A stretch of DNA of 64,000 bases from Mugil cephalus (taxonomy: Eukaryota; Chordata; Actinopteri; Mugiliformes; Mugilidae), in contig NC_061789.1 in NCBI RefSeq assembly GCF_022458985.1, positions 11,624,175 to 11,688,174 of the forward strand, given 5' to 3'. The position numbers were made by a program, and so were the translations under genes. Under the pieces are notes generated by a model, which worked only from the letters and a program-made list of their open reading frames with translations, did not search any database and was not told the origin of the DNA. The first letter of the stretch is position 1; every line of letters starts with the position of its first letter. Below are positions 7,501 through 43,427 of this stretch, piece by piece.

Positions 7501-8998
7501 TCTGACGTGACGAAGATCTGTCGTGTTTCCTCTGACACTGATCACAGATCTGAGTCCTGAGCGGCTGCTGAGCGGAAGACGTCTTCACACCGAAGTGCCT
7601 TAAGGAGTCATACGTTTTATTTTAGCAAAAGAGCAGAAACAGCGTGCAGTTACTCTGATTACCTTAAACTAAGTTCACACACGTATATGCAGCAGTAAAC
7701 TAACGGCGGCCGAAACGTCCCGCAGGCTTCAGTTTGTTTAAATATTAAATATGGAATAAATGTGTGAGAGTATTGATTCTCTTGTTTGTGTGTTTCTTTT
7801 TTTTAATAAAATACATTTGCAGAGCTTTCGTTTAAGGTGGACATTTTTACGGGCAGCAGCACCATCAAGTGGCCATTTAAGAAAACGTCACCGGACCCTA
7901 GTTTATGATTTGCGGATGAAGGCAGTGAGAAGTTTGTAAATGAAGACAATGAAATAAAAATGATGTTTTGTGCGATCTTTGAGTCCTTCGTGTGTGTATC
8001 GCAGCAGTGGCGGCAAATAAAACAGCTAATCAAATCAAAACATTAATCAAAAGTATGGATGTGAAGTCGCGTGTTATGAATTTCACATTCAGTCGGTTAT
8101 GCGTCACCACTATTTCTGACAGAGAGATAATGATAGAACAACAACAATCCATAAAAATAATAGTTATTATTGTGAAAGCAGAATATGTATCTTTAATAAA
8201 TGAGAGAGACAAAATGATAAATGTTCACAATTACTAAACGGAAAAGAGAGAATGCTTAAATATTTCTTTAAAATAGCTAGATTCAGATTTGTAGACATTT
8301 TATAGAATTGTTTTTGGATTATTTTTAGATGAAAAGTTAGTTTTCTACTTCGTTAGTTATTCGAGTTATTTTGGGCTAGTTATTTTAAACTTTGTTTTAC
8401 ACGTGGTTTTGTGGTGGACATAATCTTGGAACATCTTCCATCTCTCCATGTAAACTAATCTGGATCCTGTGTTTAGACTTGACTTTAATTTGGGACTGGT
8501 TTGGAACCTGGATTTATACTTTGTTTCAGACTTAGTTTTGGACTTATTACAGTATATATATTTAGTTTTTCATTGTTTTAGACTTCAGAAATCTTGGAAA
8601 ACTTCTCTGTTCTCCACTGTCCTGTCCTCTGAAACAGGACACTTGACTTTGGACGTTTTATACTCATTTTAAATTTAGTTTTGGACACATTTTGGACTTA
8701 TTTTAGATTGGCTTTTTTGTTTGTTTCAAACTTTTTATTACTTTTATTTCCTTTCTCAGTTTCTCAGTGGAGTTTCGGAGCGTACCAGTTTGTATTGGTT
8801 TGGTTTGCTGCAGAATGAACCTGGGGCGTTGTTGGTGAAGAGTCTAAACATGTAAAGTGTTTGTGTGTGTGTTGACTTCCCAGGGTGCAACAGGAGCAGC
8901 TGGCGGCCATCTTCCTGCTGCTGAGGGAGAACCAGGAGGCGCTGGGGGAGGTAACGGAAGGAGAGATGGAGGAGCAGCTGAAACTCTACTCACTCTAA
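814..8998 (+). CDS. mxra7: MXRA7-like protein, 3' part of gene (three coding exons; 5' exons outside window)
   Basis: Exons 814-1567 (acceptor tttccag, donor gtaaga), 3004-3103 (acceptor tttcag, donor gtcagt) and 8884-8998 (acceptor ttcccag, stop TAA) join in phase (1, then 2). The first exon encodes about 251 residues of degenerate PEPV/APEPV/VPEL repeats. The second encodes a basic-acidic stretch ending MTKEEIEEEQR, and the last begins VQQEQLAAIFLLLREN and ends EEQLKLYSL. The last two blocks match what I know of the C-terminus of vertebrate MXRA7 (matrix-remodelling-associated 7), a small single-pass membrane protein with a Pro/Glu-rich middle and poorly known function. The membrane-anchor exon must lie upstream of the window; I see no exon in 1-813. 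The repeat exon is much longer than the equivalent human region. The last codons lie inside the left arm of the inverted duplication. Identity is confident from the C-terminal exons; the link to the repeat exon rests on phase and position. Confidence 0.85.
1645..2650 (+). repeat. Two diverged direct copies of a LINE-RT-derived repeat in an MXRA7 intron
   Basis: About 1,665-1,790 and 2,510-2,650 share the order: a reverse transcriptase motif (GVPxGSxLG; second copy reads GGVPQGSFLG), then tccaagaatt, then acttttgaa(c/t)cttag. They look like short fragments of the same non-LTR retrotransposon, or of a non-autonomous relative carrying the same RT piece. The frames are not intact, so no active element is present. 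Confidence 0.5.
3985..4580. repeat. Degenerate A/C-rich tandem repeat in an MXRA7 intron
   Basis: Irregular repeats of units like gacacaaaacaac and ctgcaaagagac run for about 600 bases, preceded by an A-rich tract at 3,974-4,001. The Phe/Cys/Leu-rich minus-strand open frames here (3,898-4,587) are by-products of this composition and not genes. Confidence 0.65.
4839..4872 (+). CDS. mxra7: Candidate alternative last coding exon of MXRA7
   Basis: A good acceptor (tttatcttttcag) precedes a reading frame that joins in phase to the 3004-3103 exon (AG|G) and adds R-IELTSDFTSL before a TAA stop at 4870-4872. It would replace the conserved last exon with a ten-residue tail. The downstream 4,885-5,100 would be its 3' UTR. 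Splice site and phase are seen directly. That it is used in transcripts is inference; MXRA7 is known to have C-terminal splice isoforms in mammals. Confidence 0.5.
4873..7256. other. MXRA7 intron; no further gene seen
   Basis: Contains the putative 3' UTR of the alternative last exon (to about 5,110) and mixed single-copy sequence. Open frames (for example 5,582-5,878) are short, lack recognisable domains and were not called. Confidence 0.4.
7261..7418. mobile_element. Foldback MITE
   Basis: Long inverted repeat: the outer ends ggccactcataggaaaaaca and (reverse complement of the right end) ggccacccatgagaaaaaac pair, and the inner arms gaggtag-T-rich-catcatgcactttgaga pair with tctcaaagtgcatgatg-A-rich-cctacctc. 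TTAG flanks both sides (7,257-7,260 and 7,419-7,422), a plausible 4-base target duplication. No coding capacity. The superfamily is not certain. Confidence 0.8.
7419..8883. other. MXRA7 intron before last exon; nothing recognised
   Basis: Mostly AT-rich sequence with long T runs and scattered short frames without homology I recognise. Confidence 0.4.
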
Positions 8999-9596
8999 AC
9001 CAAGGCAGCCTCCATTCATCATCATCATCATCATTATGCTCAGTTACCATGACAACACTGACTCACCCCATCCACAATGTCCATACTGTACAGTGTCTTA
9101 AAGGGTTATTTATTTGCAGTCATGTGACACTGACATTTGTGACATCACTTCCCGGCTCATTTGTGAGGTGTGCTAGCTAATGATGAGCTTAAGAGGAGAG
9201 CTGGTGGATTAGTTACAGTTTTTCAGTGTTCATGCTAAGCTAAGCTAACAGGGTGTGGTTTCTCCGAAGGAGGACCTTCACCCCCAGGTTTTGTTCACAA
9301 TGAACTGTGTGTTTCTGTTTCTCCTCCTCTTTAAAATTCAGAGACAAACTGAACAGCACTGGAGTGACAATAGTACAGCTAATTTAACTTTTAGCATTTG
9401 GCTGTTATGTATAAATACAGTAACAACAACACGAGCTACAGATAGTGACACGTTTGTCATGATGACAGTTGTTTGTTTCTAAACCTTTTATTCTGATAAA
9501 GCTTCATCATTATAATGAGTTACAGGATCAGTTGCATACTTTTGTACTTTCATGTGTTTCTAATAGACATATAGGGCAAAAAAGAAAAAAATCATG

Positions 9597-9602
9597 AATA
9601 AA
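9597..9602 (+). terminator. Probable MXRA7 polyadenylation signal
   Basis: AATAAA about 600 bases after the MXRA7 stop in an AT-rich 3' UTR. It is also present as the reverse complement in the right arm near 42,825, because the 3' UTR is part of the inverted duplication. Confidence 0.45.
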
Positions 9603-10061
9603 GTCCACACATTTTACTTCAAAGAGAAATATTTATTCAAGTAATATTTAAAATATCTAAAAAAAATAATCATTATTATTATCTTACTAATATTGGTGTA
9701 TACACCATATTTTGAAAAGATTTTTTTTTTCTGAAGTTAAATTTAGATTTTTTTTTTTTTTTACTTTGAATCACATGTTCTTTGATAGCTGTTATTTAAT
9801 CACTTATCCTTACGTGTGTTTTGGGGATTTACTCACTGGATTTGTTATCTTAAATGAATTCTTAAATAAATATCTTAAATATTAAATTCTGTAATGTCTT
9901 TTTCATGATAATAAATAAAATAAAAATATTTTGCTGGTGATGTAGGTTTTGGGAATGGACGTGTTTCACTCACTATATATCGACATCTATAGCTCTGTGC
10001 TTTATTTCCTCGCTTCTTAGCTTTTCCTTTGTTAATTTGCAGTAGGGTGCATTTTAACCGT

Positions 10062-11467
10062 CTAAATATCTAATAACTGGCTAAGACGTATTTTCAGTAA
10101 ATGATAAAACTCCACAAGACCACGCTGTAATTTTTTAACAGTAGCTTTGACTGTTTTGTCTTGATTCTTGCTGATTGTCTTTGTCTTCTTGTTCAGTTCA
10201 TTGGTGTAATGTCCCTGTTTCTCAGCCATCTCCTTGATCTTCTTCACTAGCTCGGACACGTTGGGCTCTTCTGTGTTGAAAACAATGCATCCGCCGAATT
10301 TTCCCATGAAGCTCCTCTGTATTATAGCGCAATCTTCCTCAGTTATGATTTCATCACTCATGACAACGCCCAAGAAGAACGCCTTCGAATTTTTATTACC
10401 CTTCAAGATGATTCACAGCGCGCTCTTCCTCTGTAGTAAAAGGCTCCTTCTCCTTCACATACAGGAACACGTGAGGACCAGGAGCAGCACGTAGGATGCA
10501 TTTCAAGAGCTCCTCTGTTAACTTCTCTTTAGTTAAGTCGGTGCGGAGAAGACCAGGAGTATCGATGAAAACCACCGGCTCCTTCTCATACACTCCTTGG
10601 GTCACCTCGCACTCTGAACCACAGTACTCCGCTGTACTCTCCTTCCCAAGGATGGTGTTGATGAGTGAAGTCTTCCCAGCTCCGGCCTTTCCCACCACCA
10701 CAATCCTGAGCTCCTCTGCAGGAGAGGTTCACACAGACATTGTTAATATTATCGATCTTTTCAAACCAGATTTCTGTTTTAATCTCTCAACAGATGTGAA
10801 TTTGCTGTGTAGTTGTCACATCCAGCTCGGCAGCACCTGGTTGTGCTTCACTGTATCTCTGTTTCGTGGGGATTTCCCGTTTTATTTTGAAGCCCCGCCC
10901 TGATGTGTCTCACCTGTGCCTTATTGTTCCCCTTGTATTTAGCCCATGTGTTCCATTCCCACATGGCCGGTCTAACTGTCTTTTTACTTCGTGGCAGAAA
11001 CATACCAGCCTGTTCCAAGTGTAGTTTGTGGTTTTTCCCCTGTTCCTTCAAAACTCCACAAAACAACCACTGCAACCCTTCACATTCACAAGCTCCAGGT
11101 CTAGCTCATTAGACTCTGCCCCTCGTCCCATGCAGAAAGCCACCACCGTCAAAACCCACAGTAATATTTCCTATACTGAGCACAGCTTTACCCTCTCGCA
11201 TTAAAATCACTTTTCTGTTGGGTCTAATAGGGGCTCTGCTTTCACATTTTTCTATTGTGCATGCTATGAAATAAAATCTTAATTGTAAGACCATGTCAAC
11301 TGTACTATATACTGGACACTGGACACCAAATGTTAAGATTGATATAATTCTTTGCTTGTCTTTCTGTTCACGCAGCACAAATATTAACAAGACGTTAAAC
11401 AACACTACTATTCAGACAAAAACAACAAAATGGTGTAGATTAAACAACATGAAATGTCCTTACCCAT
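10062..11467 (-). pseudogene. GIMAP-A, left copy (AIG1-type GTPase, frameshifted)
   Basis: Exon 1 is the ATGG at 11,467-11,464 followed by gtaagg; exon 2 runs 10,715-10,062. It begins EELRIVVVGKAGAGKTSL with an intact G1 P-loop and a DTPG (G3) box, as in the right copy at 41,030-42,411. A net loss of 2 bases near 10,400 (right copy ttgaaaggatttttaaaaa, left ttgaagggtaataaaaa) shifts the frame and gives a TAA immediately after HLEG. The remaining C-terminal half (KAFFLGVVMSDE onward) is open in the other frame to the same stop. It is either a pseudogene or a truncated half-GTPase of about 100 residues. Promoter and exon 1 are intact, so it may still be transcribed. Confidence 0.85.
10716..11463 (-). 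other. GIMAP-A (left) intron 1
   Basis: Phase-1 intron between the tiny first coding exon and the GTPase exon, with acceptor ctctcctgcag and donor gtaagg. The open frames on both strands here are not conserved between arms in length and were not called. Confidence 0.6.
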
Positions 11468-11534
11468 TGTTATGTCTTGCAAAGTCCGTTGGTCTTTGAA
11501 GTCTTCACAGTTGTCTTGACGCTGTGTAACTGAA

Positions 11535-11625
11535 CAGTGCGTTAGCCTTATTTATATTATAAAGCCACTGCGGTTCCCTCCCCTTGAACATGTCACCTAA
11601 CCAGTTTGAGAAACAGTCAGCTTCT
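11535..11625 (-). promoter_or_regulatory. GIMAP-A promoter, left copy
   Basis: On the minus strand: ctcaaactggttaggtgaca, then an aggggagggaaccgcagtgg block and a TATA-like aatataaataagg, then the short 5' UTR. It is the same module as at the right copy (40,875-40,950) and is related to the GIMAP-C promoter. Confidence 0.55.
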
Positions 11626-11879
11626 CACAGATGCAACTGGGAACAGAAAAACAGAGGTTCAAACAACATTGAGACATACATCTCCTCAAGCCTGGACTGT
11701 ACCAGGTCTCGGTTGCTGTAATATGTGACGTTATGTGTTGTAGTCCCCACAGATCAGAAATGTTCCAGTAGTTGGTCAACTACTTTCCCATAGCTAAACA
11801 CCCAACTGTTACAGACAGTACAACATAGGACTTGGTGTTTTGCAAATACCCTGACATAGTAATCTGGAACAGTTGTAGA

Positions 11880-11985
11880 AAATGGTTCAGGTCTTTATGG
11901 CAATGAATGAAAATTTAATGGGGCCCAAAGTACAACCTTGGGGGACACCGCATCTTCCAGAAGCAGGAGCAGAAAAAAGGTTACC
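11880..11985 (-). mobile_element. LINE reverse transcriptase fragment (left arm)
   Basis: The reverse complement reads GRCGVPQGCTLGPIKFSF, a match to the RT motif GVPQGSxLGPxLF of fish non-LTR retrotransposons. It is short and degenerate. Partner copy at about 40,535-40,610 in the right arm. Confidence 0.55.
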
Positions 11986-13836
11986 TATGTCAACAGTCAA
12001 TAATCGATCAAAGACCGAAAATATATATATATGTATACATACACACACATTATAAATATAAACAGAGATGCAGAGAGTGAAGATATATATACATTTGCTT
12101 TTTTTGTGTGGCTTTTTTTCTTTTGCCTCAGTTGTGTGGAGTTGATTTTTTATTCAGTGACTGAGGTAACATGGAGGCTAAGCGGCCAACAATCGGTGAC
12201 TCCTTGATTTGTAAGTGAAATAATGGGCAAAGGCACTGATAGACACGATTTCAGTTGCAATTGTTAAATCAACTTGGAATTTAATGAATTGCTACTACAT
12301 GGACAGTCATTCATGAGTTTTCACATTTAAACATTAAATCATCAAGTTAACATTTGACATGTTTTTGATGTTTTGTGCAGGCTTCCTAGACAATTAGTTT
12401 TGTCTTGAGACAAAAAAAAACTGAGCATTCAGAGGTAAATAAGACTAAAGAAAACTGGAAGTCCTCATATTTTCTATCATGTGTGTAAATGCAACATAAA
12501 AATACTCCCCTCAGCTCTACTATACAGCATTTTGGTGTCTTACAGCTTAGTTTGGGCTGTTTTTTTCAGTATCATTCAGACACGGCTCCAACTGTTTCCA
12601 GACAAACCTTCTGGACTGAAGCTGAAACCATGAAACCAGCAAAATGAAACTGTTTTTTGTGACTTTAGCCAAGGAACCAACAAAGAAAAAAAAGGGGGAT
12701 TGTCAATAATCTCACAAAGTAAAGTTGATTCAGGAGAAATACAGATCAAGCAACAAAAAATACACGTTATCATCAGATCATTTGATCAGAGTGAATAAAG
12801 ATCAAAGCTGTAATGACCTGAACATTTGTTCCACATTTAAACACTTTAACTACAAGAAGTAACCGTCAAACATACTGTTTATGGGGTGTTTTTACTCTTT
12901 ATTTACACAGTAAAAAACAACAACAAAAGAATATAGTCAATTCAGTCACAATAGTCTGGTTTTTAGGCTAAGACATAAAAACAAATAAAGAACAATACAT
13001 TGAAATAACTGAATATATACAGATCTCCTTTAGAAGACATTTGGGGTCAGTTTCAATCCAGATAAAAATTATGCGTAAATGGAAATCCCATTTTTTACTA
13101 TTCAGAATCAGGTAATCTGTCTTAGTTTTTCAGTTACACAATTTTTAAGTTCTTATTTTAAGGGAAAACACAAAAAATATATAACTTTATTATATAATAA
13201 AATTATTACTATTATTTATATTATATATCTTAATTATGACCCCTCATCTGAGCCACAACAAATAAACAAATATACATAAACAAATACATTGTAGATATTT
13301 AAAAAAAAAAAAAAAAAAGTAGTAAAAAGTAGTAAAAATAGTTAACAACATAAAGATAAAGGGTTCTTCTTAACCTGAGGAGGAGCGACCAACATTTTCA
13401 AGATGCATAATAATTATTGAAATGTGTTGGGAGATATTTTATTTTGACTTTACTACACTGAAAGGATTAATTGTTAGCCTATGCCTGCTTTATCTACAAG
13501 TCAAGTGCAAAATATGAATACAAGTATATACACTTAATGATACAAATGTTGTATTTTTTGACCAGTTTATGAGTTTCACTACATTTTTTTCCTGAAATCC
13601 ACCTTGAAATCCTACCCCCTGTTTGTTTTTGGATCAAAGTTATCTAAATCCGGCTGAAACGTTTTGAGGTTTGATCCAGATTAAAACTAGGATTGGATTA
13701 TGTTATCTAATCCGAATTCAGAATCCTTCTTGCCTTTTTGAACAACCCATTTTTTAACTAAAATCTGATGAGATTAATTTTGAACAAACTGGCCCTTGGA
13801 GATAGGAGGACTTTTGACAACTCACTATATGATGCA
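11986..13836. other. Left-arm intergenic DNA between GIMAP-A and GIMAP-B
   Basis: AT-rich, with TA/CA dinucleotide tracts near 12,020-12,100 and A/T runs; conserved with the right arm but with no gene seen. In the right arm the TA tract is where the extra block of about 1 kb begins. Confidence 0.5.
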
Positions 13837-14738
13837 TCACTTCACTAGGTCTCTGATGCATATCCCTAAACGTGCTATTATAAAGGCCAGTATCCCACCC
13901 AATACAGCTCCTAGCAAAGCTGCCATCTTGGACGTCAGCTCACCCTCAGAAATACATTGCCCGATCACAGCTCCAGCAGCTAATCCACCTATAACAGATA
14001 CTTTAAGAGTTTTTAAATCGCCTTCCCTTCTCTGCAGTTTCAGTGCTTTTTCCTCCTGTTTGAGCTGTTGAATACAGTAGAAACTTTCTTTTGAGATCCT
14101 GCTCAGCAGTGGAGGGTTTTTAGGGTCACAATTACCATCGATGTTAAAAAGTGGTATTGCAAACCGTTGTCATCGATTAATTGTTTGAGGTCTATATTTT
14201 TATCTGAATTAATAAAATCTCTGATTTTACTTTCACCCACATCCCCTGTATGGGTGAACAAGATCATAGTGTAGCGCAGAAATTCTTTGCCAAAAGTGCA
14301 CTGTAGAATCTCCAGTGTTTTTTCTTCCTTTTGAAGTCTTCTTTCATCACAGCAGGACCCTTCCTCGGTTGACCAGTGGGACCCAATTTCAGGCTGACAA
14401 CAAGCGCAGCCTGGGGTGTCAACTACAACCACTTTTTTATCACCAATAATCTCTGATTTCTTTTGACACTTTTTTGTGTTGAGCCCATAAGAGGGCAGAT
14501 GTTTTGGGAATGGCTGTGTTCCACTCAGGATGACGTTTCCTGCAGAGGTCTTCCCAGCTCCCAACTTCCCAACCAGGACGACGACGTTGTGGATTCACAG
14601 TAGGCCTATCTGTTGGAGAGGATTAGAATATGAATAAGTGTCCCAGCCATGATCTCCGTGTCTTCAGCACTGACTACACAGTAGTTTTAGGTCTGTGTAT
14701 GTTTTGGTCATTGGATTTTCCGTTTAGAAAAGACATTA

Positions 14739-14739
14739 A

Positions 14740-14770
<31 letters not shown>

Positions 14771-14791
14771 TATAATAATAATAATAATAAT
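14739..14791. repeat. (AAT)n microsatellite (left arm)
   Basis: About 17 ATA/AAT units with one interruption, upstream of GIMAP-B exon 2. The partner tract in the right arm (36,748-36,805) is a longer, uninterrupted ATT run. Confidence 0.9.
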
Positions 14792-15216
14792 AAAATTTAG
14801 TGGTTATTTGATTTTATTTCAGAATTCAAAAATTAAAATTGAAATTTCGTTTTGTTTATCAGAATGGATGAACTGAACTTTAAAAACCTGCCAATCCGAT
14901 TTCCATTTTCTATTTGAAAGGATAAAAAATAAAAGAAAACTCAAAAAAGCAGCCGTTTTTCATACTTTGCAACTGGAAGTTGACGCAAGTGCGCCTATGA
15001 CGCACTGTGTTTATGGCAAGAGCACCCAAATATATGACTTCTACCTGTAGTTTCACTAGCCCTGGCTAAAATGTCCTTGGAACAATTTCCTGATTATATG
15101 TAGTTATTTATTAGCTGAAATATGCAGCTTCTCTGGGAGTCTTTTATTGTTTCGGAAAACAGCGTGGGCCTATTGATGCACGTCCATCAACTTCTGTTAC
15201 ACAGTGCCATCCTTAT

Positions 15217-15256
15217 ACTTGCTCTTACTTTGAAATGACAACTTCAAAGTAAGAGC
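15217..15256. repeat. Short perfect hairpin (left arm)
   Basis: tgctcttactttgaa and ttcaaagtaagagca flank a short loop. The same hairpin is at about 36,280-36,322 in the right arm. It could be the tip of a MITE. No transcription evidence. Confidence 0.6.
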
Positions 15257-17029
15257 ATTGTAAAATATCAATCAACCTTCAAATCCAATAACCAAAATAT
15301 AAATGGACTGTTTTAACACACAAATGTGCCTCAGTGAAACCCGTTTCACTGAAAATGCTGAAAAGCATCCATTCACTGATCTCAAATTACTAATTGGTTC
15401 AATTTTGGTAACTGATTTGATGCTAAAATGGCACAAATGCCCATTACTGCTCAGACAAACACATGACATCAGAGCACACACTTTATAACAACATCTTCAG
15501 CAGCAAGCACTGCTACATCGACGTTATATTGTTATCTAATCTCTCACCTCTGTCTTTTCAGTTTCTTCATCTGTAATCATGATTATTATTTAAATAGTCA
15601 CAGAAAACCCCATAATAAATCAAAGACAAGGGAAAGAAATGCTGCAAATGATTCACCCCAAACTCCCTGGATGTAAAAAGAGAGGTTTAAAAGAGAAGCT
15701 TATATTTCAAGAAATTACCTTGCCTATTACTGCACTCTTCACTTGCCATCTTTGTTTCTCAAAATCAGCACTTCTGAGTGGTGACTGGTCTTGTTGCAGT
15801 CCAGATGTTCTTCTGACTATTTCCACTTCACCACTACATTATAGCCTGCCAGCAGGTCCACCCCAAGAAGGGGGATGTGCAGGAGTACATTCCACAAGTC
15901 TCAAATGTCTCCTTGAGATTTACGCCTTCAAGGCAAATATCTGTTTGCAGCTGTTGTATAGTGTTGTGTTGAAGATAGAGGTAATCGCCACTGACTGAGT
16001 CTTGTCTTGCATTAAAAAGATTTATTTCAAGAGAGGACAATGTCCTGACATCTGGTAAATAACCTTTAACCTTTCAACTTTGTTTACATTTCACAAGACT
16101 ACCGTCAAATCTTAACAATATCCACCAACCAGCACCTGTAAAGCTCAACAATTAACATCTAATTAAACCACTTAACAATAGGAACGTGAATATTATATTG
16201 TATTGATCTAAGTGATTCAAAGTCCCACATCATCAATATCTGAGTAATACTGCACAAGTATCTACCACACACACTGACTTTACACTTATTTTTCCTTAAA
16301 TATGTTATAAATGTACGTCTTTGATCAGGAAGGCAAAAGCAGAGTTCTATTTAACAGAAACCCACAAGAAACTTAAATGATCCAATGAACTTTTGGAAGG
16401 TGGTAAAGTCAACTTCTGGTGCTGCTCAGTAAAATGAGCTCCCTTACCTTTTGGTCAAAGACTTTGCCTTACTGAGTTTGGTGGTGGTGCACTAGCGACC
16501 TCTCTGAATGGAGGGCCACCTCCTGGCGCCCTTCCATTTCCAGTGGAGGCCATATTAGAATGAATTGTGCTTCAGTTCTCAGCTAAATCATTTTCATTCA
16601 ACGCGTGACAAATTCGAACATTCAACATTCTACATAATCAACATAACTTTAGTTGATAAAATCATGTGCACAAAAGGGATGTAAATGAATTGTTTTGCAT
16701 CTATTAACTTTATTTTTGTAGATTCAAAGCCTGTTGTTTCTCAATTTTTCAGTGTGGTGTTTCTCATTTTTTCACTGTAGAGATCACTAAAGGTGTGCCA
16801 CATGGATCAGTCTTGGGGCCTATTTTATTTTTTTATAAATTATCTTTGTGTCAATATGGGCTAATATTGTGTCAGGCTAAAGCTAGGTTTCTACTATAGA
16901 AATCACTAGTGTTTTTTTTCAAGGAGCCCATGCTTGTGTATTCAACTTTTTTCTTTTTTTTTTTTTTTTACCTTTGATCGACTATAGAGGTGTGCTGTAT
17001 ATGTATATGTACGCTCCATCTTAATGATT

Positions 17030-17345
17030 ATCAGCTTTGGACACTGTACATCACAATGCGCCAACCTGAAAATGTCAGAACTTGCATCTTTAAATGACTT
17101 TCGTCGTTTCCTAATGGATCAACAGCGAACATCAATGGGGCATGTTGTCTGGCACCAAGAACCATACCACATTCAAAGTCACTTAAACCCCCTTTCTTCC
17201 CCATTCTGATGCTCGGTTTGAATTTCAGCAAGTTGTCTCGATCATCTCTAAATGATTAAATGCACTGGATTGCAGCCATGTGATTGGCTGATTAGCTATT
17301 TGTGAACAGGTGTACCTAATAAAGTAGCCAGTGAGTGTATATTGG
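17030..17345 (-). mobile_element. Tc1/mariner relic (left arm)
   Basis: The minus strand starts with a terminal sequence (atacactcactggctacttt, then attaggtacacctgttc) and a transposase N-terminus-like peptide (RMGKKGGLSDFECGMVLGAR), then breaks down. No DDE catalytic core is present. Partner copy at 34,030-34,345. Confidence 0.75.
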
Positions 17346-19424: not shown

Positions 19425-19430
19425 TTTATT
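19425..19430 (-). terminator. GIMAP-C (left) polyadenylation signal
   Basis: AATAAA on the minus strand about 85 bases after the stop codon, identical in position to the right copy. Confidence 0.6.
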
Positions 19431-19512
19431 GATCTCACAGCCAGCATGTCATGCAGGTAAAGTTCCTTTTCCCCTGCTTAGCCTCTCTGCGACTACACTA
19501 CTCCATAGTCGC

Positions 19513-21650: not shown

Positions 21651-21734
21651 CGTTATGTCTTGTGAAAGCAGTCAGTCTTTGAGGTCTTGGCAGTCTTGGT
21701 GTCTTGTAGTGGAAGAGCTTGTTGTGTCACCTTT

Positions 21735-21815
21735 ATATGACAATGTCACCGTGGTTTCCTCCTCTTTGAATGCGTCACCTAACCAGTGTGAGAAAGAGCC
21801 AGATTCTCACAGTTC
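21735..21815 (-). promoter_or_regulatory. GIMAP-C promoter, left copy
   Basis: The minus strand shows tttctcacactggttaggtg, then aaagaggaggaaaccacggt and a TATA-like tcatataaagg about 80 bases before the ATG. The same layout is seen at 29,610-29,690 and, diverged, at GIMAP-A. Confidence 0.6.
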
Positions 21816-21924
21816 TGCTGTCAGTAAAAGGCAGTGACCCAAACTATATGCAAATATGCAAACTGTGGTGCCAAAACATCTCCGACCTCCAGAGGCCTGG
21901 ACTGAACCACATCTCTGAAGGTTG

Positions 21925-23050: not shown

Positions 23051-23123
23051 GCCTGCACACTACATTTTGACTGAATACACTTCAGAAAGCTTCTGTGTTT
23101 TACGTTAATACCATGAGGGAGAC

Positions 23124-25380: not shown

Positions 25381-25405
25381 CTGTTCTTGTTCAGCTTGGT
25401 CTCAT

Positions 25406-26995: not shown

Positions 26996-27119
26996 ATGGT
27001 CCAAGACCATCTCCCCCACTGATTAAAACACCAGGTCCAAATGAAGCTCCTCAACTGGTCGGGCAATCAAGACTTTGTAGAGGCCAAGCTGTAAGATCTT
27101 TCCTCTGCTTAGTTTTATT

Positions 27120-28290: not shown

Positions 28291-28359
28291 GTCTCCCTCA
28301 TGGTATTAGCTTTCTGAAGTGTATTCAGTCGAAATGTAGTGTGCAGGCAATATTTACAG

Positions 28360-29475: not shown

Positions 29476-29609
29476 ATGCCTGATATCGCAGCAACCTTCA
29501 GAGATGTGGTTCAGTCCAGGCCTCTGGAGGTCGGAGATGTTTTGGCACCACAGTTTGCATATTTGCATATAGTTTGGGTCACTGCCTTTTACTGACAGCA
29601 GAACTGTGA

Positions 29610-29690
29610 GAATCTAGCTCTTTCTCACACTGGTTAGGTGACGCATTCAAAGGGGAGGAAACCACGGTGACATTGTCATATAAAGGTGAC
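29610..29690 (+). promoter_or_regulatory. GIMAP-C promoter, right copy
   Basis: tttctcacactggttaggtg, aaaggggaggaaaccacggt and TATAAAGG (29,679-29,686), about 80 bases before the ATG at 29,766. The 5' leader that follows (ctcaaagaccgactgctttc, then acaagacataacg) resembles that of GIMAP-A. Confidence 0.65.
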
Positions 29691-29765
29691 ACAACAAGCT
29701 CTTCCACTACAAGACACCAAGACTGCCAAGACCTCAAAGACCGACTGCTTTCACAAGACATAACG

Positions 29766-31926: not shown

Positions 31927-32008
31927 GCGACTATGGAGTAGTGTAGTCGCAGAGAGGCTAAGCAGGGGAAAAGGGACTTTACCTGCATGACATGCTGGCT
32001 GTGAGATC

Positions 32009-32014
32009 AATAAA
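32009..32014 (+). terminator. GIMAP-C (right) polyadenylation signal
   Basis: AATAAA about 85 bases after the stop codon. Confidence 0.6.
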
Positions 32015-34029
32015 AACTTCAATTTCAAAAAGGAAAGTTGATCAGTTTACATTTATTGTAGCTAAAAAAACGCAAGCAGTGAAAAAATTCCATAATACTA
32101 AAAAACATCCGAGACGGTGCCTTTATCTTTACATTCAGCGGTCAGCATTGATTGTTTGCTGTTAATAACTGATATTTTGAAATTTAAGGATCACAGAGCC
32201 ACTAAATTTGACTCTTTTGAACTATTTTGAACTCTGTGAGCCAGAGACTTAAGACAAGGAGCTTCTCTTTTATTCTGTTTTTTGTACTTCATGAAGCACC
32301 AGATTTATTCCAGCTGAGTAACATAAGTAACACAGTAAAATTTGACATAACTGCAGTTTTAGTAGTGTAATGTAATGGAGTACATTTACTCAAGTAGTCC
32401 AGTATACTTCTACTCAAGTTCTGACACTTGCACTACACTAATATGACAGCTGGAGGTATTTTGGGCATTGAGTATAATAATGCCACTAGACAAGGAGGAC
32501 AAATGTAAAAAAGTTGAAAATGAGCTCAATGTTTATGACCAGCAACATTAAAATAAAACATTAGAATAAAAGTTTTTATTCCTTTTACTATAATTGTATG
32601 CTTATACTTTACTAATACCAATACCTTGTACATGTACATTTAATTTTTACTTTATTGGATGGGACACGGTGTTTTCTTCATTAGTTTGGTAATTAAAGTG
32701 TGTGGTTAAGCTCAAAGGTGAGAGAATGATTGTTTTCTTGGTTAAATATGGTCAGTCGGGTGTTTCATTGTCTTTCCTGCTATTGTATCATTACTTAGCT
32801 GTGTTATCTGTCCTCTATAGACAGTGATATATATATATTTTTTTTCTTATACTGCGACTGTAAATATAATAATAAGTTTTCCAACCCTGATTCTCTGACA
32901 ACTTAATTAATAAACGTGACCAAAATGACACACACAATTGTTTGGATGGGATTAATCACTAAGCTCTAAAATCACTGTGCAAGACTGTCAAACAAAAAAA
33001 TAAAATAAAAATTAGCATACATGTTACCATTGAAACTTACTGTCAGCTCCCTAGGAATATGTGAGACATGCATTTGTTTTATTCAATGTAGTCTTTTTTT
33101 TTAATGTATTCACCAGTTCAATTTTTATTATTTTCATCTAAATGTGTGCTAACTAGTAGAGCTTTCTTAGATTTTAATTACAAGTGTGAATATTATCACA
33201 TTTACATTACTAAAACTTATATAATCAATAAAGAATGAAGTCTTTGTTATTGACAGGGTCAGACGCAATAGTCTTGTTCAAGTTTACTTACCTTAATCCG
33301 ACTCTAACTGGACAACCAAATGCATTTAAACACGTCACTCAATTGGACTGAGCACCACAACCAGTGCTGGCATGTAACCCTGGAATAAAAGATAACATTC
33401 AAGAAAGGTGGTCACAGAAGAAGAAGGTAAACAGAACTGGTAGAAGAACCACCTACGAGATTAACTTTTATCCGTCCTGTTGTTGTTCTGCCGCATGAGT
33501 TGTGTATTATATCACGTAATAGGTCAACCGGAAAGCGGGACGTATCAACATTGAATTAACCTGTTGACAAGACACATATCGTCACCTAGTGTGGAGGAGG
33601 AGGACATGTTCCTGTTAGTTATTCAATTTTGTCCGTTGCATGTAAACTCGGACAGGGAGCGCATTCAGAAAGTCGAATTTAGGGCATTGCTCCATTAAGC
33701 TGTGCATGTAAACACACTGTGTAGCAAGCAAGGAAGCAGGCACGAGAGAGAAATATGAGGCTTAGCTCAGGAAGGGACAGATAGGAAGGGTTTTCTGTTT
33801 GTTTCTAGAGCTCTGTCCCAGCAGATTGGAGGACTGGAGTGGCCAGGGGTCCAGATCGACCACCAACGATGGGAGAGTTAAGTCTAAACCACGACTCCTC
33901 CCCACCTGTAGCCAACCAATCATATTCAGTTTGTTCAAACTGTTATAATGATGTGAAACTACTGTAAATCATCCTTTTCTGAGCCAAGGTCAACTGAATA
34001 GACAAACGTGCATGTATTTCTATATTCCA

Positions 34030-34345
34030 ATATACACTCACTGGCTACTTTATTAGGTACACCTGTTCACAAATAGCTAATCAGCCAATCACATGGCTGC
34101 AATCCAGTGCATTTAATCATTTAGAGGTGATCGAGACAACTTGCTGAAATTCAAACCGAGCATCAGAATGGGGAAGAAAGGGGGTTTAAGTGACTTTGAA
34201 TGTGGTATGGTTCTTGGTGCCAGACAACATGCCCCATTGATGTTCGCTGTTGATCCATTAGGAAACGACGAAAGTCATTTAAAGATGCAAGTTCTGACAT
34301 TTTCAGGTTGGCGCATTGTGATGTACAGTGTCCAAAGCTGATAAT
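34030..34345 (+). mobile_element. Tc1/mariner relic (right arm)
   Basis: Terminal sequence atacactcactggctacttt, then an N-terminal transposase-like peptide (RMGKKGGLSDFECGMVLGAR). No catalytic core. Partner of 17,030-17,345. Confidence 0.75.
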
Positions 34346-35747
34346 CATTAAGATGGAGCGTACATATACATATACAGCACATCTCTATAGTCGATCAAAG
34401 GTAAAAAAAAAAAAAAAGAAAAAAAGTTGAATACACAAGCATGGGCTCCTTGAAAAAAAACACTAGTGATTTCTATAGTAGAAACCTAGCTTTAGCCTGA
34501 CACAATATTAGCCCATATTGACACAAAGATAATTTATAAAAAAATAAAATAGGCCCCAAGACTGAGCCATGTGGCACACCTTTAGTGATCTCTACAGTGA
34601 AAAAATTAGAAACACCACACTGAAAAATTGAGAAACAACAGGCTTTGAATCTACAAAAATAAAGTTAATAGATGCAACACAATTCATTTACATTCCTTTT
34701 GTGAACATGATTTTATCAACTAAAGTTATGTTGATTATGTAGAATGTTGAATGTGCGAATTTGTCACGCGTTGAATGAAAATGATTTAGCTGAGAACTGA
34801 AGCACAATTCATTCTAATATGGCCTCCACTGGAAATGGAAGGGCGCCAGGAGGTGGCCCTCCATTCAGAGAGGGCGCTAGTGCACCACCACCAAACTCAG
34901 TAGGGCAAAGTCTTTGACCAAAAGGTAAGGGAGCTCATTTTACTGAGCAGCACCAGAAGTTGACTTTACCACCTTCCAAAAGTTCTTTGGATCATTTAAG
35001 TTTCTTGTGGGTTCCGTTAAATAGAACTCTGCTTTTGCCTTCCTGATCAAAGACGTACATTTATAACATATTTAAGGAAAAATAAGTGTAAAGTCAGTGT
35101 GTGTGGTAGATACTTGTGCAGCACTACTCAGATATTGATGATGTGGGGCTTTGAATCACTTAGATCAATACAATATAATATTCACGTTCCTATTGTTAAG
35201 TGGTTTAATTAGATGTTAATTGTTGAGCTTTACAGGTGCTGGTTGGTGGATATTGTTAAGATTTGACAGTAGTCTTGTGGAATGTAAACAAAGTTGAAAG
35301 GTTAAAGGTTATTTACCAGATGTCAGGAGATAAGTTCTCTCTGTTTTTAAATCGGGGTTCTTGGGGATGAGAACCGTATATGAGGTGACTGCGGGAGCTG
35401 AACGATAGAGGGGATTCGATGATTGCCTAGTAGCTCTCTCAGATTCAGCAAGAGTTTTTGACATTGTCCTCTCTTGAAATAAATCTTTTTAATGCAAGAC
35501 AAGACTCAGTCAGTGGCGATTACCTCTATCTTCAACACACCACTATACAACAACTGCAAACAGATATTTGCCTTGAAGGCGTAAATCTCAAGGAGACATT
35601 TGAGACTTGTGGAATGTACTCCTGCACATCCCCCTTCTTGGGGTGGACCTGCTGGCAGGCTATAATGTAGTGGTGAAGAGGAAATAGTCAGAAGAACATC
35701 TGGACTGCAACAAGACCTCTCAGAAGTGCTGATTTTGAGAAACAAAG

Positions 35748-36746
35748 ATGGCAAGTGAAGGGGACTCAGAGCTTGCAGAGCTTGGTGAGTGTATCTTCGT
35801 AAAGTACTGCAGTGATAGTCGAGATAATTTCTTGAAATATAAGCTTCTCTTTTAAACCTCTCTTTTTACATCCAGGGAGTTTGGGGTGAATCATTTGCAG
35901 CATTTCTTTCCCTTGTCTTTGATTTATTATGGGGTTTTCTGTGACTATTTAAATAATAATCATGATTACAGATGAAGAAACTGAAAAGACAGAGGTGAGA
36001 GATTAGATAACAATATAACGTCGATGTAGCAGTGCTTGCTGCTGAAGATGTTGTTATAAAGTGTGTGCTCTGATGTCATGTGTTTGTCTGAGCAGTAATG
36101 GGCATTTGTGCCATTTTAGCATCAAATCAGTTACCAAAATTGAACCAATTAGTAATTTGAGATCAGTGAATGGATGCTTTTCAGCATTTTCAGTGAAACG
36201 GGCTTCACTGAGGCACATTTGTGTGTTAAAACAGTCCATTTATATTTTGGTTATTGGATTTGAAGGTTGATTGATATTTTACAATGCTCTTACTTTGAAG
36301 TTGTCATTTCAAAGTAAGAGCAAGTATGCGGACGGCGCTGTGTAACAGAAGTTGATGGACGTGCATCAATAGGCCCACGCTGTTTTCCGAAACAATAAAA
36401 GAGTCTCAGAGAAGCTGCATATTTCAGCTAAGAAATAACTACATATAATCAGGAAATTGTTCCAAAGACATTTTAGCTAGGGCTAGTGAAACTACAGGTA
36501 GAAGTCATATATTTGGGTGCTCTTGCCATAAACACAGCGCGTCATAGGCGTACTTGCGGCAACTTCCAGTTGCAAAGTATGAAAAACGGCCGCTTTTTCG
36601 AGTTTTCTTTTATTTTTTATCCTTTCAAATAGAAAATGGAAATCGGATTGGCAGGTTTTTAAAGTTCAGTTCATCCATTCTGATAAACAAAACAAAATTT
36701 CAATTTTAATTTTTGAATTCTGAAACGAAAATCAAATAACCACTAA

Positions 36747-36804
<58 letters not shown>

Positions 36805-37773
36805 TTAATGTCTTTTCTAAACGGAAAATCCAATGACCAAAACATACACGGACCTAAAACTACTGTGTAGTCAGTGCTGAAGACACGGAGATGTATAGGA
36901 TACGGAGGTCACGGACTCATATTCTAATCCTCTCCAACAGATAGGCCTACTGTGAATCCACAACCGGAAGAGCTGAGGATCGTCCTGGTTGGGAAGTTGG
37001 GAGTTGGGAAGACCTCTGCAGGAAACATCATCCTGAGTGGAACACAGCCATTCCCAAAACCTACATCCTCTTATGGGCTCAACACAAAAAAGTGTCAAAA
37101 GAAATCAGAGATGGTTGGTGATAAAAAAGTGGTTGTAGTTGACACCCCAGGCCTGTGCAGCATTGGGTCCCTGTCTGAGGAAGACGCGGTGAAAGAGCTG
37201 AAGAAGTCCGTCAAACTGGTCAAACCGGGTCCTCATGTGTTCCTGCTTGTGATGAGATATGGGAAAGACTTCACAAAAGAGGAAGAAAAAACACTGGAGA
37301 TTCTGCAGTGCACTTTTGGCAAAGAATTTCTGCGCTACACTGTGATCTTGTTCACCCATACAGAGGACGTGGGTGAAAATAAAATCAGTGATTTTATTAA
37401 TTCAGATAAAAATATAGACCTCAAACAATTAATCGATGACAACGGTTTGCAATACCACTTTTTTAACATCAATGTAAATGGTGACCCTAAAAACCCTCCA
37501 CTGCTGAGCAGGATCCCAAAAGAAGGTTTTTACCATATTCAACTGCTCATACAGGCGGAAAATGCACTGAAACTGCAGAGAAGGGAAGGCGATTTAAAAA
37601 CTCTTAAAGTATCTGTTATAGGTGGATTAGCTGCTGGAGCTGTGATCGGGCAATGTATTTCTGAGGGTGAGCTGACGTCCAAGATGGCAGCTTTGCTAGG
37701 AGCTGTATTGGGTGGGATACTGGCCTTTATAATAGCACGTTTAGGGATATGCATCAGAGACCTAGTGAAGTGA
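35748..37773 (+). CDS. GIMAP-B, right copy: intact GTPase of immunity-associated protein (AIG1 family)
   Basis: Exon 1 35,748-35,784 (MASEGDSELAEL, donor gtgagt) and exon 2 36,941-37,773 join in phase 1 to give about 289 residues. The GTPase exon has no ATG before the P-loop; a GTG-based start at 36,952 is an artefact, and the splice acceptor tctccaacag gives the true frame. Motifs: G1 GKLGVGKT (about 30-37), switch threonine in LNTKKCQ (about 61), G3 DTPG (80-83), the GIMAP-typical PGPHVFLLV box (108-116), and G4-like FTHTED (150-155). The C-terminus has two hydrophobic stretches (VIGGLAAGAVIG and MAALLGAVLGGILAFIIARL), suggesting membrane anchoring as in several GIMAPs. GIMAPs regulate lymphocyte survival and vesicle or organelle contacts in vertebrates. 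The left copy is a pseudogene, so this is the only working B gene here. Confidence 0.9.
36748..36805. repeat. (ATT)n microsatellite (right arm)
   Basis: About 19 uninterrupted units in GIMAP-B intron 1. The left-arm partner is shorter and interrupted. Confidence 0.9.
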
Positions 37774-38892
37774 TGCATCATATAGTGAGTTGTCAAAAGT
37801 TCTCCTATCTCCAAGGGCCAGTTTGTTCAAAATTAATCTCATCAGATTTTAGTTATCGAACTGGATCCAATTTTGAAAATGGGTTGTTCAAAAAGGCAAG
37901 AAGGATTCTGAATTCGGATAAGATAACATAATCCAATCCTAGTTTCAATCTGGATCAAACCTCAAAACGTTTCAGCTGGATTTGGATAACTTTGATCCAA
38001 AAACAAACAAGGGGTAGGATTTCAAGGTGGATTTCAGGAAAAAAATGTAGTGAAACTCATAAACTAGTCAAAAAATACAACATTTGTATCATTTAGTGTA
38101 TATACTTGTATTCATATTTTGCACTTGACTTGTAGATAAAGCAGGCATAGGCTAACAATTAATCCTTTCAGTGTAGTAAAGTCAAAATAAAATATCCCCC
38201 AACACGTTTCAATAATAAACAAAAATAATTATTATGCATCTTGAAAATGTCTACTTTTTTTTTTTTTTTTTAAATATCTACAATGTATTTGTTTATGTAT
38301 ATTTGTTTATTTGTTGTGGCTCAGATGAGGGGTCATAAGAGAAATTATAAATAAAGTGGATATTTATGTTATTTTTGTGTTTTCCCTTAAAATAAGAACT
38401 TAAAAAGTGTGTAACTGAAAAACTAAGACGGATTACCTGATTCTGAATAGTAAAAAATGGGATTTCCAGTTACGGACAATTTTGATCTGGATTAAAACTG
38501 ACCCCAAATGTCTTCTAAAGGAGATCTGTATATATTCAGTTATTTCAATGTATTGTTCTTTATTTGTTTTTATGTCTTAGCCTAAAAACCAGACTATTGT
38601 GACTGAATTGACTATATTCTTTTGTTGTTGTTTTTTACTGTGTAAATAAAGAGTAAAAACACCCCATAAATAGTATGTTTGACAGTTACTTCTTGTAGTT
38701 AAAGTGTTTAAATGTGGAACAAATGTTCAGGTCATTACAGCTTTGATCTTTATTCACTCTGATCAAATGATCTGATGATAACGTGTATTTTTGTTGCTTG
38801 ATCTGTATTTCTCCTGAATCAACTTTACTTTGTGAGATTATTAACAAATCTTTTTTTTTTTTTGTTCTTTTTTGGTTCTTTGGCTAAAGTCA

Positions 38893-38928
<36 letters not shown>

Positions 38929-40860
38929 AGTTTCATTTTGCTGGTTTCATTGTTTCAGCTTCAGTCCAGAAGGTTTGTCTGGAAACAGTTGGAGCCGTGT
39001 CTGAATGATACTGAAAAAAAAAACAAAAAACAGATCAAGCTAAAAGTAAGCTGAAAGACGCCAAAATACAAAACAAAACTAATTGTCTAGGAAGCCTGCA
39101 CAAAACATCAAAAACATGTCAAATGTTAACTTGATGATTTAATGTTTAAATGTGAAAAATCATGAATGACTGCCCATGTAGCAGCAATTCATTAAATTCC
39201 AAGTTGATTTAACGATTGCAACTGAAATCCTGTCTATCAGTGCCTTTGCCCATTATTTCACTTACAAATCAAGGAGTCACCGGTTGCTGGCCAGAATAAA
39301 AAAAAAACAACAACACACAACTGAGGCAAAAGAAAAACAGCCACACAAAAAAACAAACATATATATATATACAGTGTGTATATATATATATATATATCTT
39401 CACTATCTGTATCTCTGTTTATAATTATAACTATATACATATTTTAATTATTTAGGTGGATATCCTATAGAGGTTTACCAAATCCAACAAAACCAACAAA
39501 AAGTGGAGTTCTGTGGAGCATACCAAGGGTAAATATATATATACATATATATGTGTGTGTGTGTGTGTGTTGCTTCAAACACGCTACATGTAATTTGTAA
39601 CCCCTAACACAAACTACACTTCAAATATCATAGTTCACTCATTTAACACAAATCATGGCAAGTAATTAGTGAGTGTGTGTGGGTGAGTAGGGAATATGGT
39701 GGATCAGAGGGGATGAACCTGGATTTCTTCTCTCCAGCTCACAGATGTCACTCATTTGTTACCCTTACAGATAGCAAAGACACTGATTAACATATATATG
39801 CACAAACACATATGAACACCCTGTTACTACGATAGGAAAATAGTAGAGAAAGAACAACAGAGAGAGAGAGCATTCACGTAGTATCTGTTGTTCTCATCTG
39901 ATTCCTGGCATTATTTTGATGTCATCTCTGGATAAAGAACAAGGAAATCTCAGTCAGCTGAAGATGAGTCTTAACAGGTCAGAATGGAAGTGTAGACGGG
40001 CTCTCTTCAGAGTGAAATAATTCAAAAGCTTGATACTTGCCATGATCTCAGAAAACCTGTTGCCAGTGAAGCCTGTCAGAGCTGGTCCAGATATCACCGC
40101 GGACGTTACTCCCCGCGTTCGCGTGACAGAAGACAGATGTAAAAGGTGTTGAAAATACGCTCTTGTTTTATTGGCATGTAAAATAACATGAGATTAGATA
40201 AGGCGTAGTTTTTGTAGCAACCATAAATGCAAGTTTGGAAGATGTGTTTATGAAATAACAAGCAACAGTAGCATGTATAAACTTTCTGATTTATGATACG
40301 GAGCTATTAGGCTGAGCAGGGAGTCCCAGACATCCCTCTCCCTAGTGGCACAATCTGGTTCATCATGAGGTCTTTCAAGACAATTCAGATATTTAATCTC
40401 CTCCACAGGGTCTATATATAAATATATAAATATATATATATATATATATATGCACTAATGTGACAATATTTTCAGTCTTTGATCGATTATTGACTGTTGA
40501 CATAGGTAACCATGTTTCTGCTTCTGCTTCTGGAAGATGCGGTGTCCCCCAAGGTTGTACTTTGGGCCCCATTAAATTTTCATTCATTGCCAAAAAGACC
40601 TGAACCATTTTCTACAACTGTTCCAGATTACTATGTCTGGGTATTTGCAAAACACCAAGTCCTATGTTGTACTGCCTGTCACAGTTGGGTGTTTAGCTAT
40701 GGGAAAGTAGTTGACCAACCACTGTAACATTTCTGATCTGTGGGGACTACAACACCTAACGTCACATATTACAGCAACCGAGACCTGGTACAGTCCTGGT
40801 ACCAGGCTTGAGGAGGTGTACGTCTCAATGTTGTTTGAACCTCTGTTTTTCTGTTCCCAG
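37774..40860. other. Right-arm intergenic DNA between GIMAP-B and GIMAP-A
   Basis: Mirror of 11,626-13,836 plus a block of about 1 kb at 39,430-40,440 absent from the left arm. It holds a 34-base poly(A) run (38,894-38,927; only about 6 bases on the left), TA tracts (39,360-39,400, 40,420-40,452) and a GT run (39,553-39,570). The LINE RT fragment lies near 40,535-40,610. No gene seen. Confidence 0.55.
39430..40440. other. Right-arm-only block of about 1 kb
   Basis: The left arm goes straight across a TA/CA tract here (about 12,000-12,080). The right arm has about 1,000 extra bases bounded on both sides by TA repeats. I recognise no coding sequence or terminal repeats. It is either an insertion on the right or a deletion on the left mediated by the TA tracts. 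Confidence 0.6.
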
Positions 40861-40874
40861 TTGCATCTGTGAGA

Positions 40875-40950
40875 AGCTGACTGTTTCTCAAACTGGTTAG
40901 GTGACATGTTCAAGGGGAGGGAACCGCAGTGGCTTTGTAATATAAATAAG
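40875..40950 (+). promoter_or_regulatory. GIMAP-A promoter, right copy
   Basis: tttctcaaactggttaggtg, aaggggagggaaccgcagtg and TATAAATA (40,941-40,948), about 80 bases before the ATG at 41,030. It aligns with the GIMAP-C promoter over about 75 bases. Confidence 0.65.
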
Positions 40951-41029
40951 GCTAACGCACTGTACAGTTACACAACATAAAGACAACTGTGAAGACTTCA
41001 AAGACCAACGGATTTTGCAAGACATAACA

Positions 41030-42411
41030 ATGGGTAAGGACATTTCATATTGTTTAATCTAGAGCATTTTGTTGTTTTTGTCTGAATAGTAGTGTTGTTT
41101 AACGTCTTGTTAATATTTGTGCTGCGTGAACAGAAAGACAAGCAAAGAATTATATCAATCTTAACATTTAAGTGTCTAGTATATAGTACAAATGACATGG
41201 TCTTACAATTAAGATACAACATGCAAAATAGAAAAATGTGAAAGCAGAGACCCAACAGAAAAGTGATTTTAATGCGAGAGGGTAAAGCTGTGCTCAGTAT
41301 AGGAAATATTACTGTGGGTTTTGACGGTGGTGGCTTTCTGCATGGGACGAGGGGCAGAATCTGATGAGCTAGACCTGGAGCTTGTGAATGTGAAGGGTTG
41401 CAGTGGTTGTTTTGTGGAGTTTTGAAGTAACAGGGGAAAAAACACAAACTACACTTGGAACAGGCTGGTATGTTTCTGCCACGAAGTAAAAGACAGTTAG
41501 ACCGGCCATGTGGGAAGGGAACACATGGGCTAAATACAAGGGGAACAATAAGGCACAGGTGAGACACATCAGGGTGGGGCTTCAAAATAAAACGGGAAAT
41601 CCCCACGAAACATAGATACAGTGAAGCACAACCAGATGCTGCCGAGCTGGATGTGACAACTACACAGCAAATTCACATCTGTTGAGAGATTAAAACAGAA
41701 TTTGGTTTGAAAAGATCAATAATATTAACAATGTCTGTGTGAACCTCTCCTGCAGAGGAGCTCAGGATTGTGGTGGTGGGAAAGGTTGGAGCCGGGAAAA
41801 CTTCACTCATCAACACCATCCTTGGGAAGGAGAGTACAGCAGAGTACTGTGGTTCAGAGTGCGAGGTGACCCAAGGAGTGTATGAGAAGGAGCCGGTGGT
41901 TTTCATCGATACTCCTGGTCTTCTCCGCACCGACTTAACTAAAGAGAAGTTAACAGAGGAGCTCTTGAAATGCATCCTACGTGCTGCTCCTGGTCCTCAC
42001 GTGTTCCTGTATGTGAAGGAGAAGGAGCCTTTTACTACAGAGGAAGAGCGCGCTGTGAAGCATCTTGAAAGGATTTTTAAAAATTCGAAGGCGTTCTTCT
42101 TGGGCGTTGTCATGAGTGATGAAATCATAACTGAGGAAGATTGCGCTATAATACAGAGGAGCTTCATGGGAAAATTTGGCGGATGCATTGTTTTCAACAC
42201 AGAAGAGCCCAACGTGTCCGAGCTAGTGAAGAAGATCAAGGAGATGGCTGAGAAACAGGGACATTACACCAATGAACTGAGCAAGAAGACAAAGACAATC
42301 AGCAAGAATCAAGACAAAACAGTCAAAGCTACTGTTAAAAAAATACAGCGTGGTCTTGTGGAGTTTTATCACTCACTGAAAATACATCTTAGCCAGTTAT
42401 TAGATATTTAG
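41030..42411 (+). CDS. GIMAP-A, right copy: intact AIG1-type GTPase
   Basis: Exon 1 is only ATGG (41,030-41,033, donor gtaagg). Exon 2 is 41,756-42,411 (acceptor ctctcctgcag). They join to MEELRIVVVGK, giving 219 residues. Motifs: G1 GKVGAGKT (about 10-17), G3 DTPG (53-56), the GIMAP PGPHVFLYVK box and EPNVSELVKKIKE. The C-terminal third is Lys-rich and amphipathic (KKTKTISKNQDKTVKATVKK), without a clear transmembrane segment. The short size is typical of small fish GIMAPs, and cytosolic GTP binding is expected. A phase-1 intron right after the start is shared with B and C. The four-base coding first exon is inferred from phase and from homology to GIMAP-C exon 1 and leader. Confidence 0.88.
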
Positions 42412-42466
42412 ACGGTTAAAATGCACCCTACTGCAAATTAACCAAGGAAAAGCTAAGAAGCGAGGA

Positions 42467-42472
42467 AATAAA
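42467..42472 (+). terminator. GIMAP-A (right) polyadenylation signal
   Basis: AATAAA about 55 bases after the stop codon. Confidence 0.6.
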
Positions 42473-42829
42473 GCACAGAGCTATAGATGTCGATATATAG
42501 TGAGTGAAACGCGTCCATTCCCAAAACCTACGTCCCCTTTTGGACTCAAAACAAAGACTTGGATTTGATTAATAATAAGAATTCCAGTGAATAAATCCCC
42601 AAAACACACGTAAGGATAAGTGATTAAATAACAGCTATCAAAGAACATGTGATTCAAAGTAAAAAAAAAAAAAAAGAAAGAAAAAATCTAAATTTAACTT
42701 CAGAAAAAAAATCTTTTCAAAATATGGTGAATACACCAATATTAGTAGGATAATAATATTTTCAATATTACTTGAATAAATATTAATATCAAAGTTGTAA
42801 TTCTTTGAAATAAAATGCGTGGACTTTAT

Positions 42830-43427
42830 TCTTGATTTTTTTTTTCTTTTTTGCCCTATATGTCTTTTAGAAACACATGGAAGTACAAAAGTATGCAACT
42901 AATCCTGTAACTCATTATAATGATGACGCCTTCTCAAAATAAAGTTTTAGAAACAAACAACTGTCACCGTGACAAACCTGTCACTATCTGTAGCTCGTGT
43001 TGTTGTTTACTGTATTTATACATAACAGCCAAATGCTTAATTATAAATTAGCTGTACTATTGTCACTCCAGTGCTGTTCAGTTTGTTTCTGCCTGTTAAA
43101 GAGGAGGAGAACCAGAAACACACGAAACCTGGGTCCTCCTTAAGAGAAACCACATCCTATTAGCTTAGCTTAGCATGAACACTGAAAAAATGTAGCTAAT
43201 CCACCAGCTCTCCTCTTTAGCTCATCATTAGCTAGCACACCTCAAAAATGAGCCAGGGAGTGATGTCACAGCTGTCAGGGTCACATGACTGGAAATAAAC
43301 AACCCTTTAAGACACTCTACAGTATGGACGTTGAGGATGAAGTGAGTCAGTGTTGTCATGGTAACTGTCACTGAGCATGATGATGATGATGATGATGAAC
43401 GGAGGCTGCCTTGGTTTAGAGTGAGTA
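42830..43427 (-). pseudogene. Orphan copy of MXRA7 stop codon and 3' UTR
   Basis: The reverse complement matches 8,986 to about 9,600: the last codons (TACTCACTCTAA), the atcatcatc run and the 3' UTR through the AATAAA signal. No upstream MXRA7 exon sequence follows beyond 43,427. It is the outer end of the right arm. Confidence 0.88.

Follow-up and report, generated by a model that had tools for sequence, protein, structure and literature searches.

The closest described systems to the locus reported here are human inverted duplications with single-copy spacers, whose median length across 21 sequenced junctions is 3,428 bp (PMC3907307). At the inner joins of this series, 13 of 21 show 2-8 bp of microhomology and 3 more show repeat homology of ~300 bp (PMC3907307). 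According to a different model, palindromes form first and erode later (PMC10766186). GIMAP genes, for their part, are described as expanded in teleosts (PMC9245644), and in Asian seabass caskin2, jmjd6, an EP-like gene, mettl23, gimap7, casc3 and rapgefl1 are placed on one scaffold, among the 36 genes of a robustness QTL region (pathogen-rich environment; PMC10413685).

Here we describe a GIMAP cluster of Mugil cephalus that is present twice in inverted orientation. The window, i.e. the whole stretch of 64,000 nucleotides that was analyzed, corresponds to C20:11624175-11688174, and the genome searched comprised 24 contigs (635 Mb).

Results

Arms and spacer

The first-pass annotation had described a head-to-head inverted duplication with arms of 14.7 and 15.8 kb around a 3.9 kb spacer, in which three GIMAP genes, repeats and microsatellites occur in mirrored order. 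Self-BLAST bore this out with coordinates that agree with these lengths. Four collinear inverted blocks pair 8987-12024 with 43427-40466, 12083-12407 with 39368-39069, 12560-16044 with 39020-35460 and 16030-23654 with 35342-27763, and the pairing picks up again at 23655-23720/27598-27663 (66 nt, 94%). The three AIG1 genes, the (AAT)n/(TTA)n microsatellites and the 23-bp repeats are mirrored in both arms. The inverted copy (arm B, 27598-43427, minus strand) adjoins its original (arm A, 8987-23717, plus strand), the two being separated by a spacer of 3.88 kb (23718-27597) that is present once in the 134 kb examined. When the inner arm (15000-23700) was searched against the genome, it returned itself, arm B and rows of at most ~400 bp at 68-90% identity, with no other near-identical copy among the 40 of 9,360 candidates scored.

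Gaps of at least 40 bp are found on both sides of the alignment. Arm B alone holds stretches of 913, 99, 97, 133 and 45 bp, the largest of which (39553-40465, plus strand) had no dispersed copies except of its AT-rich edges among the 40 of 267 candidates scored. As no such copies were found, we favor loss of this ~0.9 kb in arm A over an insertion in arm B. Stretches of 120, 70 and 49 bp are, conversely, confined to arm A. The 99-bp stretch (27664-27762, plus strand) is part of an old repeat and is missing from arm A. Scans of the window for tRNAs and Rfam families gave no matches, and neither did a PDB search with 48408-48881.

Joins

Dispersed repeats are truncated at both joins. The spacer repeat (23718-26552, plus strand) is cut off at the inner join, 23718. 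A search starting from this point gave at least 67 match rows, self included (40 of 721 candidates scored), and seven further copies were fetched (L002-L008), five of which reach the position equivalent to 23718. All five continue beyond it with ~180-800 bp of common sequence, which is the reason for regarding the repeat as cut. For the same reason we rejected the possibility that the spacer repeat is an inserted element whose genuine terminus coincides with the edge of the arm. The repeat contains a nested element (25729-26221) with 19-bp inverted ends, which is absent from the same site in copies L006 and L008.

On the other side of the spacer, an old repeat (27107-27900, plus strand), ~70-80% identical to its copies, continues without interruption from the spacer into arm B. 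The sequence between the two repeats (26553-27106) had no other match among the 40 of 636 candidates scored, which, given that proportion, is weak evidence. The repeat at the outer join (43428-43776, plus strand) is cut off at 43428; it gave at least 61 match rows, and all three copies fetched run past this point, so that the proposal that arm B ends at a true terminus of this repeat was likewise dropped. In the copies compared, the sides of either join share 0 bp, and the missing ends of the repeats were not found elsewhere in the 134 kb searched around the locus, beyond a 20-21 bp overlap at 23718.

Flanking genes and polarity

The terminal helical domain of MXRA7 (PF25473, E 6.4e-15) was detected at ~8882-8992, the match extending as far as the query does (8992), and the outer edge of arm A consists of the last three MXRA7 codons and the 3'UTR. 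A search with 8200-9800 matched just itself and arm B, the latter only from 8987 inward. The part of MXRA7 that lies outside the arm thus has no second copy, and arm A therefore occupies the ancestral position, arm B being its inverted copy. The spacer could have been flipped by later recombination between the arms, and the outer polarity is therefore firmer than the assignment of the inner cut to one arm.

To the right lies CASC3, identified by its match to PDB chains (best E 3e-25). An open reading frame at 58921-59340, which gave no hit in a Pfam scan, we take to be RAPGEFL1-like, and a sequence further left of MXRA7 is presumably JMJD6-like. MXRA7 itself seems to hold a long proline/glutamate/valine repeat (window 682-1650), which may perhaps correspond to the seabass 'EP-like' gene beside jmjd6.

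GIMAP genes in the arms and an older pair

Each arm contains three GIMAP exons: G1A (10065-10728), G2A (13840-14622) and G3A (19513-20154) on the minus strand in arm A, and G3B (31285-31926), G2B (36928-37773) and G1B (41743-42411) on the plus strand in arm B. The AIG1 domain (PF04548) scored above the gathering score in all five exons scanned (G2A, G3A, G3B, G2B and G1B), and G1A aligned to G1B by tblastn at 96-98% identity in two frames. The arms are not equivalent: the reading frames of G1 and G2 are open in arm B and disrupted in arm A. G1A carries a 2-bp deletion with clustered changes and G2A has deletions clustered in the GTPase region, while the open frames of G2B and G1B encode 281 and 222 aa. 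The P-loop motif is GxxxxGK[ST]; it is present in G1 and G2, including the open G2B and G1B, and missing from both G3 exons, in which the Pfam match does not begin until profile position 38. A comparison of G3A with G3B over 213 codons shows five amino-acid replacements and a single silent change. In both arms the AIG1 frame of G3 has stayed open despite the missing P-loop, as if a non-GTP-binding GIMAP might have been retained. The open genes are presumably expressed.

An older pair of GIMAP genes with open frames lies to the left of MXRA7: G1' (window ~ -24937 to -24245; L041, from C20:11599243) and G2' (window ~ -19485 to -18589; L042, C20:11604716-11605564). The P-loop of G1' is altered (GKAGARKT), its frame being otherwise open. 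Stretches at 21230-21924, 29492-30186, 11464-11630, 40867-41033 and -27026 to -25277 (L041) share ~71-76% identity; they lie upstream of G1, G3 and G1' and are possibly common promoter or first-exon modules left by older tandem copying.

The older pair served as an outgroup for the lesions, with gapped columns left out and flanking non-coding columns included. With G2', 50 of the sites that differ between the arms match B, 11 match A and 12 are unresolved. With G1', 14 sites changed in A and 11 in B (12 unresolved), numbers too close to give a clear arm bias for G1. The coding-part deletions of G2A are missing from G2', and at the 2-bp deletion of G1A arm B and G1' agree. By this comparison, arm A is where most G2 lesions arose. 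Conversion of G2A from a third paralogue was also considered as a source of its divergence but found no support at the DNA level, where a search turned up three candidates, G2A itself, G2B and G2'. The G2B protein gave 137 exon-level matches in the genome, several per gene. Two blocks on another contig (C8:525525-528766 and C8:1097069-1100319), ~571.5 kb apart, each hold four GIMAP-like matches with equal spacing and near-equal scores, which suggests another large GIMAP duplication.

Divergence between the arms

A divergence of about 1%, as earlier given for many stretches, did not hold as a general value: we measured 2.6-3.2% of aligned bases. Among ungapped columns, 457 of 14,267 differ (3.2%); once the 1,120 columns lying no more than 8 bp from a gap are set aside with their 121 differences, the figure is 336 of 13,147 (2.56%; 198 transitions, 138 transversions). 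Identity in 500-bp blocks wholly within the arms ranges from 89.2% to 99.8%; the two end blocks, which overrun the arms, gave 79.2% (first) and 87.8% (last). Along arm A, divergence is 8.6% at 8987-9400, 7.0% at 9400-9885, 2.5% at 9885-12024, 3.7% at 12083-15000, 1.9% at 15000-19000 and 1.7% at 19000-23717.

The variance-to-mean ratio over 500 columns was 5.41 versus a null maximum of 2.35 (0 of 5,000 shuffles as high). It was 5.34 without exons (0 of 5,000) and 2.51 when the outer 1.2 kb was removed as well (1 of 5,000). The inner half without exons gave a weaker signal of 1.85 at 500 columns (142 of 5,000) and 2.36 at 250 columns (1 of 5,000). The longest identical run, which begins at 19975 and overlaps the G3 exon, measures 485 bp, and the next, beginning at 15340, measures 378 bp; both lie above the 95% null value of 247 for the longest run, the null maximum being 382. 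This pattern of uneven divergence and long identical runs fits the arm-to-arm gene conversion that the first-pass annotation had considered. The unevenness exceeds chance and suggests that the inner arms have been partly homogenized by patchy conversion.

Discussion

Inverted geometry, repeats truncated at both joins, the polarity given by MXRA7, heterogeneous divergence and the origin of most G2 lesions in arm A are established from the sequence of this locus. We read them, with a probability of about 0.72, as a genuine germline inverted segmental duplication made in a single two-jump event and followed by partial conversion and by decay of G1 and G2 in arm A. That the duplication is real is very probable, and it probably arose through one slip of DNA copying. 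Synthesis across the MXRA7-GIMAP-CASC3 region would have broken or stalled at a point x (23717) and restarted on the opposite strand ~3.9 kb beyond it, at a point y within an older dispersed repeat. Copying would then have run backward through the spacer and the whole cluster as far as the last codons of MXRA7, before jumping forward to another repeat, at 43428, and proceeding to CASC3. The two jumps would belong to one event, either template switching or fold-back plus end joining, and would account together for the opposed arms, the single-copy spacer and the truncation of both repeats. Gene conversion would afterwards have partly homogenized the inner arms, with G1 and G2 meanwhile decaying in arm A. 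Several observations sit less easily with this account. Neither join shows microhomology, unlike most of the human cases (PMC3907307), and multi-step routes would yield similar joins (PMC10766186); moreover, arm A holds stretches absent from arm B, the differences in G1 show no bias toward arm A, and the signal for conversion weakens in the inner half once exons are removed.

An assembly error joining two haplotypes of one locus head to head, an alternative raised when the locus was first annotated, is disfavored by the sequence evidence, and we consider it very unlikely. The clustered indels in G2A could resemble consensus noise, but the 134 kb contain 0 N, and no sequence common to the sides of either join is available for an overlap. 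In addition, neither the end of MXRA7, outside the arm, nor CASC3 has a second copy in the 134 kb; with these single sequences on either side, the error would need two false joins. The usual heterozygosity is lower than the divergence between the arms, and 2.6%, rising to 7-9% toward the outside and joined by the 0.9-kb difference, is high for alleles. Somewhat less improbable, although still unlikely, is an origin as a longer symmetric palindrome or inverted triplication, made asymmetric by later deletions at the center and outer end and by repeat insertions. Erosion is the fate proposed for palindromes (PMC10766186), and arm A is indeed missing, near the center, 99 bp spanned by further copies of the old repeat. 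Such a history nevertheless takes more steps (a palindrome, a repeat insertion, and a deletion cutting both the repeat and arm A), and the 134 kb searched showed no trace of the lost repeat ends, though none is strictly required.

Weighing the homogenization step separately, the uneven divergence might instead reflect regional mutation rate or constraint without any exchange between arms, which we regard as doubtful but the most credible of the alternatives. It draws on the mild overdispersion of the inner half without exons, where the signal for conversion is weaker, and on the overlap of the 485-bp run with the G3 exon. Against it, overdispersion stays after removal of the exons and of the outer 1.2 kb, and both the 485- and 378-bp runs exceed the 95% null value. 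We think it quite improbable that the decaying arm A and the open arm B form an active conversion pair exchanging GIMAP sequence; if they did, the broken and P-loop-less copies would be a reservoir diversifying or rescuing an immune GTPase cluster.

With the single two-jump duplication as our preferred reading, the rearrangement is real but ordinary, each element being of known kind. It offers a readable example of a vertebrate immune GTPase cluster gaining copies by a single inverted duplication, for which the two joins, the direction and the after-effects (partial homogenization and gene decay in one arm) can be reconstructed. Since the seabass robustness QTL lies in the same neighborhood (PMC10413685), copy number here may merit scoring. 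No report of an inverted GIMAP duplication was found in the literature searched, where palindrome and teleost papers were judged by title among the matches listed.

The locus resembles the human disomic-spacer inverted duplications, for which a fold-back model is given, in its adjoining inverted copy, single-copy spacer of a few kb and joins that in some cases fall in repeats (PMC3907307). Unlike them, it is interstitial, ~15 kb long, without terminal deletion and present in a reference assembly, and its joins lack the microhomology or hybrid repeat that is usual, though not universal, in the human series (PMC3907307). We therefore claim only that the locus may work like the fold-back/template-switch class. 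With the gene palindromes of mammalian sex chromosomes (PMC8981503, PMC3723533) it shares large inverted arms and signs of arm-to-arm conversion, near-identical tracts being found beyond chance. Unlike in those palindromes, arm identity is ~97%, with edges at 91-93%, rather than > 99%, and two genes have decayed in one arm (PMC8981503, PMC3723533). The neighborhood is like that of the Asian seabass scaffold (PMC10413685) in CASC3, which we tested, and presumably in JMJD6 and RAPGEFL1; the table of that paper lists a single gimap7 without gene order and says nothing on duplication. As in the GIMAP expansions of other teleosts, GIMAP genes have been multiplied here too, but unlike in those expansions as described (PMC9245644), the copying step, its two joins and its polarity are readable at this locus.
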